From assembly GCA_029547185.1 (NCBI GenBank), contig JAKPPU010000056.1, positions 1-64,000 on the forward strand: a stretch of 64,000 nucleotides of DNA. The letters are read 5' to 3'. A program made the translations under genes and the position numbers. Below are positions 57,127 to 60,460 of the stretch, one piece after another. The notes beneath the pieces are model-generated. The model made no database searches. It was not told the origin of the DNA and worked only from the letters and a program-made list of their open reading frames with translations. This stretch comes from Deltaproteobacteria bacterium (lineage in GTDB: Bacteria; Desulfobacterota; Desulfomonilia; UBA1062). The stretch's first letter is position 1, and each line of letters begins with the position of its first letter.

Positions 57127-57706
57127 AAAATCTTTCTCCTTAATATCCTAATATAGGATTGATTGTGCCGATTTAAAGGATCACCGGCATGTACTCGTCA
57201 TATCCGACTGCTCGGAACTCTCATGCCTTGAGTCCTTGCAATAATTCAGTAACCCCCTATCAGAAATCATATCGGCCCTTATAGTACCCGGGGAGGGAAG
57301 ACGGCATACAACAAAGGCATGGATTCTTTCAGAGGGGCACAATGCTTAAATGCCTGGATGGAGGAGCCGGACATTTTGGCCTTTGACTCCACCCGGGCAC
57401 TGTGCTAGGTGAGTGCTGTCATGGATAACGAAGAGAGCGATAGAAACAAGAAAATCTGATTCCTCTGCCTCGGCACGGGTCATCTGTCCACAGGCAGGGG
57501 AGAGATGATCGTGCCGGATCCTTAAAAGCTCCTGATCCTTAAGAACCCGGTCGATCTTGCGAAATCCACAAAAGGTGCGGATGTATGTTCAAGCATGATC
57601 GAGATGCATATTCCCGGGAAGCAGACTGCCTCCGAGAAGTTCTTGAATTTCCGCATCCGTCCGGATCGAGAAGGCCCTTTGTCGGGCAACAGCGTGGGGG
57701 TTCTGC
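57127..57706. other. Gene-poor region between flavin reductase and transporter
   Basis: About 580 bases. Contains the 57145-57159 palindrome near the flavin reductase start; an imperfect hairpin CGGCACG...CGTGCCG (about 57466-57514); and a repeat of GATCCTTAA at about 57519 and 57534. A stretch near 57320-57410 reads like decayed coding sequence on either strand but matches nothing I know. I searched by eye for M-box and Mn2+ (yybP-ykoY) riboswitch patterns before the transporter and saw neither. Confidence 0.35.
57145..57159. promoter_or_regulatory. Palindrome at the flavin reductase promoter
   Basis: ATCCTA-ATA-TAGGAT has perfect 6-bp arms and lies 19-33 bases upstream of the flavin reductase ATG on the minus strand, overlapping the likely promoter. 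A redox or flavin-responsive regulator is possible; none is encoded nearby. Confidence 0.45.
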
Positions 57707-59014
57707 ATGTATTGGCTGAGCAAAACCTTTCACCGCATCCGCCGATTCAGGAGGAGGCTCCTGATCTTCCTCTCCGTGCTCGGACCCGGGATCATCGTCA
57801 TGATTGCAGACAACGATGCGGGAGGGATATCAACCTACGCCGTCACCGGATCGAAGTACGGGTTCTCGCTCCTCTGGGTTTTTCTCATTCTCCTTCCCAT
57901 GGCATACTATGTACAGGAGATGACCGTCCGGGTGGGTGCCGTGACGAAACGGGGGCAGGCCGAGGTTATCTTCGAAGGCTTCGGCCCCTTCTGGGGCTGG
58001 TTCTCCATCGTGGACCTGATCCTTATCAACTGGCTCACCTTGATTACGGAATATGTCGGCATGACGGCCGCCATGAGCCTCTTCGGCATCCCCGCGTGGA
58101 TCACCTTCATTGCAGTGACGATCATTCTCTTCACCGTTGTCCGTACGGGACAGTACTGGACGTTCGAGAAGATAACCCTCTTATTCTGCCTCTTCAACCT
58201 CGTCTACATCCCGGCAGCCATCTGGGCCATGGACACACCGACCGCGCCCGCGTGGAGCAAGGTCTTTCAGGGGTTCTACCGTCCGGAAATGGGCAGCTTC
58301 AACATCGATCTCCTCTTCATCATTCTCGCCAATCTCGGGACCACCATCACACCGTGGCAGCTCTTTTTCCAGCAGAGCGCCGTCGTCGACAAGGGGCTCG
58401 ATATCCACGATATCGGATTCGGGAAGGCCGAGACCTTTGCCGGATCTTTTCTCACCTGTCTCGTGGCCGTATTCATCATCATTGCAACCGGCGCAGCCTT
58501 CTTCTATCATCATCCGCCCATCGAAATCGCCGACGCCCGGCAGACCGCCGAGGCCATCGTGCCTCTCCTTCCTGCAGGACATGGGGACCTTGCCCGGAAG
58601 CTCTTCGCCATAGGCCTCTTCGATGCGGGATTCCTGGGGGCCTTGTGCATCTCGCTCGCGACTTCGTGGGCGGTCGGTGAGGTTTTCGGATGGGCCCATT
58701 CCCTCAACCAGAAGGTCAAGGATGCGCCATGGTTCTATCTCATCTATCTCCTCATGCTGATCACCTCCGGGGCCGTGGTGCTCATACCCGGCGCCCCGCT
58801 CGTTACGATCACCATGTACGTCCAGGTGGTGGCGGTCACCCTGCTTCCCGCTTCGCTCATCTTCCTCCTGCTCATCCTCAACGACAGGTCCTTCATGGGG
58901 GATTTTGTGAATACGCGGCGGCAGAACATCATGAACTGGTCTATCGTCGTTCTCGTCATTGCAATGTCTTCACTCATGGGTGTAAGCACCCTGTTTCCGG
59001 AATTGTTCAAATAA
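57707..59014 (+). CDS. Nramp-related metal transporter with non-canonical metal site
   Basis: 435 residues, about 11 membrane helices. TM1 has GPGIIVMIADNDAGGISTY: the classic DPGN becomes D37-A-G-G, so the Asp is kept and the Asn lost. TM6 has NLGTTITPWQLFFQQSAVVDKG where Mn/Fe Nramps have MPH: Met and His are replaced by Thr and Trp. Loss of the soft Met ligand is what distinguishes Nramp-related magnesium transporters from Mn2+/Fe2+ importers. The gene is followed 19 bases later by a protein with MgtE N and CBS domains, which supports Mg2+ as substrate. Start ATG has only a weak site (GGGGG). Confidence 0.8.
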   Translation: MYWLSKTFHRIRRFRRRLLIFLSVLGPGIIVMIADNDAGGISTYAVTGSKYGFSLLWVFLILLPMAYYVQEMTVRVGAVTKRGQAEVIFEGFGPFWGWFSIVDLILINWLTLITEYVGMTAAMSLFGIPAWITFIAVTIILFTVVRTGQYWTFEKITLLFCLFNLVYIPAAIWAMDTPTAPAWSKVFQGFYRPEMGSFNIDLLFIILANLGTTITPWQLFFQQSAVVDKGLDIHDIGFGKAETFAGSFLTCLVAVFIIIATGAAFFYHHPPIEIADARQTAEAIVPLLPAGHGDLARKLFAIGLFDAGFLGALCISLATSWAVGEVFGWAHSLNQKVKDAPWFYLIYLLMLITSGAVVLIPGAPLVTITMYVQVVAVTLLPASLIFLLLILNDRSFMGDFVNTRRQNIMNWSIVVLVIAMSSLMGVSTLFPELFK

Positions 59015-59033
59015 GTACCAGGGAGGTGCCGCT

Positions 59034-60323
59034 ATGGCAGCCGACAACGGTTTCAAGGCAAAGGGAATCGATCAGATCCACGGATCGGAGCAGTTCCGTT
59101 TCCACTTCTTCTCTGAGCTGCTCAAGCGGCCTGTCTGCATCGACAACATAAAGAACCGGATCGGCAGGCTCAGCGATCTCGTCTTCCTCCTGAAGGAGCC
59201 CTATCCCGAAGTCGTTGGCATCTATATCGAGCACGGTTGGGGGAAGCCCACCGAGCTTGTCCCGTGGTCGAAGGTGATAAAGATCGAAGATGACGCCATC
59301 TTCATCGCTCCTCCCGATGGAGGAGAGGCGTTTCCTCCCTTCGTCGATCAGCCGGGCTGGATCCTCATTGAAAAGCATCTCATGGGCAAGACGGTCCTCG
59401 ATATCGACGGGAGGAGGGTCGAGGTCGTCAATGATGTCCATTTTCTCGAGACGAGGAGCACCCTGCTGCTCGTGCATGTCGACTTCTCCTTCGGCGGTTT
59501 TTTCCGCAGGTGGGGCCTCGGGAAATACGAGCTCGTTAAAAGCAATCTGATCTCCTGGAGATACATCCAGCCTCTCTCTGTTGAAGATGCAGTATCGACC
59601 GACAAGGTGACCCTGTCCGTCACCAAAAAGCAGATGCTCGAGCTTCCGAGCGAAGACCTGGCGGACTTCCTGGAAGAGCTGCCCGGAGAAGAGCAGCAGG
59701 TTTTGTTTTCCGCCCTCGACAGCGAGAAGGCGGCAGAGACCCTCATGGAGGCGGAGCCCAGGGCACAGCGGCAGATCATTGCCAATCTCCGTGAGGAGAA
59801 GGCGCGTAAGATCCTCTCGGAGATGACGACTCCTCAGCTCGCGGGCCTCTTTTCGGTGCTTCCCCACGACGACGTTACCGAGCTCATGGCCTACCTGGAC
59901 AGGGAGCAGGCAGAGCGTGTCCGGGAAATCCTTTCCGAGCGTGAGATCACGGTGCACAATCTCATGTCTCCGGATTACTTTCTTGCATCGAAAACAGACA
60001 AAGTGGGCAATGTTCTAGCAGCGGTCAGGGCTTCCGGCAGAGAGCCGAGGAGCATCTCCTACATTTACATAGTCAATGGCGATGGGAGGACGCTGCTCGG
60101 CGTCGTCGATCTCCGTGAGCTCGTGATATCGCCCGATGATCTACCCGTGACCGAGGTCATGAGCTCTCCGGTCGTCACTGCCGAAGAGGATGATGTCCAG
60201 GACGACATCGAGGAGATGTTCGCGAAGTACCATTACCGGATGATACCCGTGGTCGACGGCCAGGACCGCATGCTCGGCGTCATCTACTACAACGATGTCA
60301 TGAAAGGCGCCGCGAGCCGCTGA
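59034..60323 (+). CDS. PRC-barrel / MgtE N-domain / CBS protein without a transport domain
   Basis: 429 residues, soluble, ATG preceded by GGGAGGTGCCGCT. Residues about 25-195 form two PRC-barrel-like segments (IGRLSDLVFLLKEPYPEVVGIYI; LMGKTVLDIDGRRVEVVNDVHFLE). Residues 205-300 are the helical MgtE N domain (LPSEDLADFLEELPGEEQQVLFSAL; ILSEMTTPQLAGLFSVLPHDDVTELMAYL). Residues 305-425 are two CBS domains (VHNLMSPDYFLASKTDKVGNVL; VTEVMSSPVVTAEEDDVQDDIEEMFAKYHYRMIPVVD). In MgtE these domains bind Mg2+ and gate the pore; here the MgtE pore is missing, so it likely regulates the Nramp-related transporter encoded just before. Confidence 0.88.
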   Translation: MAADNGFKAKGIDQIHGSEQFRFHFFSELLKRPVCIDNIKNRIGRLSDLVFLLKEPYPEVVGIYIEHGWGKPTELVPWSKVIKIEDDAIFIAPPDGGEAFPPFVDQPGWILIEKHLMGKTVLDIDGRRVEVVNDVHFLETRSTLLLVHVDFSFGGFFRRWGLGKYELVKSNLISWRYIQPLSVEDAVSTDKVTLSVTKKQMLELPSEDLADFLEELPGEEQQVLFSALDSEKAAETLMEAEPRAQRQIIANLREEKARKILSEMTTPQLAGLFSVLPHDDVTELMAYLDREQAERVREILSEREITVHNLMSPDYFLASKTDKVGNVLAAVRASGREPRSISYIYIVNGDGRTLLGVVDLRELVISPDDLPVTEVMSSPVVTAEEDDVQDDIEEMFAKYHYRMIPVVDGQDRMLGVIYYNDVMKGAASR

Positions 60324-60346
60324 AAAACATCAAATAGGAGGAGATC

Positions 60347-60460
60347 ATGCCCCGTGTGAAGATGACGAGAACCGGAAAGCTGGTGCTGTACTTCCTGCAG
60401 TTCTACCTGGTGGTCCTGCTGATCCTCTTGCTGGTCAAGTTCCTCGGGGTTTTGTCCTGA
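60347..60460 (+). CDS. 37-residue single-pass membrane peptide
   Basis: ATG preceded by AGGAGGAGATC, a near-perfect ribosome binding site, 23 bases after the MgtE-N/CBS gene. The peptide has a basic N-terminus (MPRVKMTRTGK) and one hydrophobic helix (LVLYFLQFYLVVLLILLLVKFLGVLS). Strong site, operon position and clean topology argue that it is real. It may be a small regulatory subunit of the transporter, by analogy with small membrane proteins such as MgtS or KdpF; that is inference. Confidence 0.7.
   Translation: MPRVKMTRTGKLVLYFLQFYLVVLLILLLVKFLGVLS

Follow-up and report, generated by a model that had tools for sequence, protein, structure and literature searches.

The window analysed here is a 64,000-nt stretch of deltaproteobacterial DNA, and on its forward strand three open reading frames follow one another closely, as an earlier note made from the sequence alone had described. 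The first, nrmT (57707..59014), codes for a 435-aa protein assigned by Pfam, structure matching and phylogeny to the NRMT-type divalent cation transporters. The second (59034..60323) encodes a putative soluble regulator of 429 aa with PRC, MgtE_N and CBS domains, and the third (60347..60460) a predicted single-helix membrane micropeptide of 37 residues, whose ATG at 60347 is preceded by the Shine-Dalgarno sequence AGGAGG (60336..60341, forward strand) that had also been pointed out. Since the intergenic gaps measure 19 and 23 nt, with all three genes on the same strand, they most likely form one operon. Upstream we find what we take from the translations to be an acyl-CoA dehydrogenase-like ORF and, on the opposite strand, a flavin-reductase-like ORF; downstream, again on the opposite strand, lies presumably a CoA-disulfide-reductase/rhodanese-like ORF, named in the same way. 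The host genome contains two CorA and two MgtE-pore genes besides this cassette, and an NrmT-type transporter like that of the window was present in one of the seven congeners searched; the cassette is therefore accessory and patchily inherited. One genome with an intact cassette carries further NrmT-like gene fragments with stop codons (G026:C6:4448-4687 and G026:C116:454-828) that are likely decayed copies.

The nrmT product matches the Pfam Nramp family (PF01566) with an E-value of 7e-71, and the loss of the DPGN Asn and of the MPH Met/His proposed in the earlier note was confirmed: TM1 reads D37-A-G-G40 where Nramps have DPGN, and TM6 reads T212-T-I-T215-P-W217 where they have A-T-x-M-P-H. 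The ion site is DxxG-TxxT in place of DxxN-AxxM, and the published NRMT signature is DxxG-TxxA/T (PMC8806188). This pattern is nearly universal among relatives, with DNDAGG in 74/75 and GTT(I/V)(T/A)PW in 73/75. The best relative of solved structure is EleNRMT (PDB 7qia, E 6e-66), whereas MntH structures match only at 6e-17. In maximum-likelihood trees all NRMT-like sequences separate from the Nramps with a support of 100/100; the window transporter falls inside a group that we call clade A (100/99), whose sister, clade B, contains EleNRMT, while the deepest branching on the NRMT side is made uncertain by the long branches of L026 and EleNRMT. By sequence and phylogeny, the window transporter thus belongs to the NRMT magnesium transporter group and stands apart from the Mn/Fe Nramps, as had been predicted. 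The suggestion of a channel-like system found no support: NRMTs have the Nramp fold and work as carriers, and EleNRMT is an uncoupled transporter (PMC8806188). Some related genomes encode Nramp proteins of ~630 aa (L020, L021, L027-L029), which were considered as sensor fusions and rejected; the three that were scanned consist of Nramp plus a C-terminal Usp (universal stress protein) domain and lie on the canonical Nramp side.

For the second protein, Pfam finds PRC segments at 24-95 and ~109-180, MgtE_N at 205-301 and two CBS stretches reaching to 424, and no MgtE pore domain, in agreement with the domain reading of the earlier note. The sensor does sit on a separate chain, and its gene co-occurs with the transporter among relatives; the split itself is already known, as a neighbouring MgtE-N-like gene beside NrmT has been reported (Shin 2014, PMC4072509). 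An AlphaFold2 model of the regulator (pLDDT 78, pTM 0.40) leaves the mutual placement of the domains uncertain. Its residues 191-426 match the MgtE cytosolic domain 2yvy with a Z score of 20.5 over 235 aligned residues and an rmsd of 14.7 A, which we take as reflecting domain placement in the model. The VIA-align matches listed comprise MgtE and CBS structures; PRC-barrel structures are not among them, which is no argument against the PRC domains.

It is only in its domains that this protein fits the description as Mg2+-sensing. In MgtE, Mg2+ is bridged by E59, D91, D95, D226, D247 and the plug-helix residues E258/D259 (PMC5882242), and we expected these sites in the regulator; on residue mapping most of them proved to be missing. 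Only E59 (E235) and D247 (D421) are kept, D91, D95 and D226 are replaced by P267, G271 and H400, and the chain stops short of the E258/D259 equivalents. Among the relatives, the E59 and D247 positions are Glu or Asp in 40/41 and 41/41 sequences, Pro prevails at D91 and His at D226, and D95 is variable. The ATP pocket of MgtE, formed by Y170, R187, D188, N203, V207 and F227 (PMC5529423), is in contrast largely retained: Y343, R361, E362, V381 and Y401 of the window protein are identical or conservative, N203 (S377) being the exception, and the relatives keep Y170, R187, V207 and F227 (Tyr/Phe), mostly D188 (Glu/Asp), but not N203. Because the ATP pocket is kept and most Mg2+ ligands are lost, the regulator more likely reads adenine nucleotides than Mg2+ alone, as far as residue conservation can indicate.

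The 37-residue peptide, hydrophobic from about residue 12 to 34, matches no Pfam or NCBIfam family, and we found no published account of it in the literature searched; it appears to be new, and it is the new part of the findings at this locus. Using a profile built from five close relatives, we found it directly 3' of the sensor gene in 70/70 scorable loci (complete sensor gene and either enough downstream sequence or a peptide match; the remaining loci stop at contig ends), with a median gap of 10 nt. These loci come from the best 80 of 449 matches and hence from the nearer part of the clade, within which they cover ~14 phylum-level groups. An SD-like sequence precedes the gene in 53/70 relatives. 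The pooled dN/dS is 0.19 in frame, the two alternative frames giving 1.2 and 2.6, and mismatches are distributed 0.44/0.22/0.63 over the codon positions, a pattern indicating that the gene is under purifying selection. L17, Y20 and L27 are invariant and L14, F32, T7 and R3 nearly so. Between residues 13 and 32 the degree of conservation rises and falls with a helical period (best angle 102 degrees, p 0.0018), as would suit a helix packed along one face. A search for a fourth conserved gene found no neighbour shared by more than 11 of 72 loci, and the conservation of the peptide is therefore not plain synteny. The proposal of an extra subunit thus gains credibility from the 70/70 conservation and the dN/dS of ~0.19; instead of a chance reading frame, the peptide is probably a subunit that has been overlooked. 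None of the three outcomes that the earlier note had named as refuting it was observed.

Co-occurrence was examined in two genome samples, both chosen regardless of the peptide. In 395 genomes of the window's phylum, seven have a clade-A transporter (>550 bits, the next match being at 300); an independent peptide profile search gave six strong matches, 6/6 in those seven genomes. The seventh has a weak match adjoining its nrmT, and one more weak match elsewhere in the sample (G206) is probably chance. Among 297 genomes of Acidobacteriota, the phylum of the host of L070, 16 have a clade-A transporter (>500 bits), and all 15 strong peptide matches fall within these 16, the sixteenth transporter being cut by a contig end. 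Fisher tests, in which relatedness is ignored, give p-values of 1e-12 and 2e-24 for the two samples. Two deeper loci (L148, L172) have the order nrmT-peptide-sensor, and four (L173-L176) have nrmT-peptide with no sensor gene seen within ~3 kb. The peptides of these loci are longer (58-74 residues, with an N-terminal extension), L175 giving a weak match (E 0.0025). In the tree, the transporters of the deeper peptide-bearing loci that were placed form one clade together with clade A (97/93). In the clade B loci, ordered sensor-nrmT, the same peptide was sought and not found. As the sensor-less loci keep nrmT-peptide and clade B has the sensor without the peptide, the distribution argues that the peptide follows the transporter, not the sensor. 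Four clade B genomes of one family have a different 29-residue membrane ORF (MKxxxSWxVTxLFLIGSxxFLRWL) 400-650 nt 3' of nrmT (L151:4675-4764, L152:3254-3343, L153:1733-1822, L154:3970-4059).

The operon of the window is preceded by a 580-nt leader, which contains a possible 12-residue acidic leader peptide, MDNEESDRNKKI (57421..57459, forward strand), with an SD before the ORF. Its counterpart in the nearest relative (L032) is MDEESDRYSKA, with an in-frame 3-nt indel, a weak comparison of two genomes only. Directly 3' of the ORF lies a hairpin (57471..57516, forward strand) whose stem recurs in the folds of both sequences, with z-scores of -0.9 (window) and -2.1 (L032) that are weak alone. A leader role of MDNEESDRNKKI in the window is a guess from these sequences, and the ORF is an acidic variant only, lacking Pro-Pro. 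A short ORF of the type M..[EDQKR]PP[SG] occurs in 37/79 regions of 700 nt upstream of nrmT, compared to 1-8 in dinucleotide shuffles. An MEPP[SGN] ORF lies 130-280 nt 5' of nrmT in 24 loci (L033-L038, L040, L042, L043, L047, L051, L052, L054, L055, L059, L063, L068, L070, L073, L079, L087, L088, L101, L108), although no more than 25 ORFs of this form exist on both strands of all loci combined (1.45 Mb). The remainder of the peptide is divergent; because the Pro codons vary at third positions, the signal lies in the protein. The motif was noticed while reading leaders and counted afterwards, and thus carries no advance prediction. In eight aligned loci, mostly Syntrophaceae, the ORF is followed by a conserved inverted repeat similar to TCCCGGAAAT...ATTTCCGGGA. 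A search 5' of the sensor in 12 clade B loci gave no MEPP leader. In enterobacteria, Mg2+ transporters are under the control of acidic and proline-rich leader peptides (PMC8092293, PMC6460261), and by analogy the MEPP-type leader peptide, the new part in the relatives, may be a regulator.

With regard to the metal, an Rfam search of the window gave no family at gathering score and no M-box at its operon. Nine clade-A operons (L049, L053, L056, L061, L064, L071, L078, L080, L104) have an M-box riboswitch 230-670 nt 5' of nrmT, and where inspected it precedes a terminator-like hairpin and T run; this supports Mg2+ as the probable metal of these nine operons. The leaders at M-box loci are of the MKQEDGQPPSSGG type. 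Seven loci (L049, L053, L064, L071, L078, L080, L104) have a second conserved leader segment between the M-box terminator and nrmT (e.g. L053:4490-4700), consisting of an ORF MKQEDGQPPSSGG... and the elements TGGAAG...GCGATAG...CTTCCA. The segment also occurs in L045 without a neighbouring M-box and is possibly a further structured RNA.

Taken together, we lean towards a three-gene uptake cassette for a divalent cation, most likely Mg2+, which we consider somewhat better than an even bet and which would combine an NRMT carrier, a nucleotide- or Mg2+-responsive regulator and a small membrane subunit. The genes, their conservation, the clade of the transporter and the inheritance of the peptide together with it are observed, and from these we infer the substrate, the physical contacts, the direction of regulation and the topology as follows. 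NrmT would act as an NRMT-type carrier whose widened binding site passes hydrated Mg2+. The cytosolic regulator would use its CBS pair to bind an adenine nucleotide, might bind Mg2+ as well at those few acidic positions that are left, and would limit uptake in the replete cell. The peptide of 36-37 residues would be a dedicated single-helix membrane subunit of NrmT, with one conserved helix face, made up of L14, L17, Y20, L24, L27 and F32, packing on the transporter and stabilising or modulating it, and with its basic N-terminus (MPRVxMT) on the cytosolic side. Some observations count against this reading: the window operon has no M-box, its host has the CorA and MgtE-pore genes mentioned above, the NrmT of Acidobacterium capsulatum gave an Mn2+ result (PMC4072509), and a DtxR-type gene stands beside the deep relative L175.

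For the peptide, a role as NrmT subunit is the most likely one, followed by a turnover factor and, least, an anchor of the regulator. MgtR and MgtU are small peptides through which MgtC and MgtB are brought to FtsH, and mgtR (30 aa) and mgtU (28 aa) are single-helix peptides encoded at operon ends that act in this way in Mg2+ transport (PMC8092293); the last place of our peptide in the operon would fit a similar turnover factor of NrmT, or a protector like MgtS, rather than a stoichiometric subunit. We hold this to be rather unlikely, since the cross-phylum conservation is above expectation for a fast-evolving regulator and the peptide stands directly behind nrmT in the deeper branches. That the cassette imports Mn2+ or Fe2+ instead of Mg2+ is, on balance, also unlikely. 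The A. capsulatum NrmT, encoded with a partial MgtE gene, acted as an Mn2+ transporter that rescued Mn2+ uptake and Mg2+ uptake only at low millimolar concentrations, co-expression of the partial MgtE being of no help (PMC4072509), and EleNRMT carries both Mg2+ and Mn2+ (PMC8806188). The gene adjoining L175 (L175:451-1119, upstream of the sensor-less, peptide-bearing NrmT relative) codes for a DtxR/MntR-type repressor with a FeoA domain; as the TM1 motif of that transporter is altered as well, its metal preference may differ, and the neighbourhood suggests Mn/Fe there. Against such a metal for the cassette speak the nine M-boxes and the NRMT motif in practically all members. An even smaller chance is given to the reading that the peptide partners the soluble regulator or anchors it, bringing it to the membrane: in all 70 scorable clade-A loci the gene next to the sensor on its 3' side is that of the peptide, but in L173-L176 no sensor gene was found nearby and clade B combines sensor and NrmT without such a peptide. 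Although every genome has many short ORFs, a chance reading frame is already refuted by the 70/70 conservation, the low dN/dS in this frame alone and the codon-position pattern.

Small membrane proteins are systematically overlooked by annotation. The present one is tied to a single transporter sub-clade with no exception among scorable loci, and it is present both with and without the regulator gene. It is possible, though we would not yet call it probable, that a sub-clade of SLC11/Nramp carriers spanning ~14 phylum-level groups has an overlooked obligate single-helix micropeptide subunit, many of its operons lying under a new acidic/Pro-Pro leader (MEPPS/G) that would read translation at low Mg2+. 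The peptide makes two questions testable, namely the role of the MgtE-like fragment next to NrmT, which the 2014 work had left open, and the possibility of small subunits for SLC11-family carriers, for which, to our knowledge, none is known.

Compared to the known NRMTs (Clostridium acetobutylicum Ca_c0685 and EleNRMT), the window system shares the Nramp fold, the DxxG-TxxA/T site, a separate MgtE-N-like gene nearby and, in some members, M-box control. The EleNRMT group and the window clade are sister clades that differ in gene order (nrmT-sensor-peptide in the window, mostly sensor-nrmT in clade B) and in the conserved micropeptide, absent from those clade B loci that we examined. With the cytosolic domain of Thermus thermophilus MgtE (2yvy/5x9g), the regulator shares the fold of MgtE_N and CBS pair and the ATP-pocket residues, but it is devoid of pore and plug helix, has PRC-barrel domains in front and has most Mg2+-bridging residues replaced. 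The peptide resembles MgtS, MgtR, MgtU, KdpF and AcrZ in being a single helix of ~30-50 residues that acts on a transporter or has its gene beside that of one; there is no demonstrated sequence relation to these, and its candidate partner is an SLC11-family carrier. The MEPPS/MEPPG leaders of the relatives, finally, are like the enterobacterial mgtL, mgtP, mgtQ and corL in being short acidic or Pro-rich ORFs 5' of an Mg2+ transporter, but they differ in sequence, occur in other phyla and precede another transporter.
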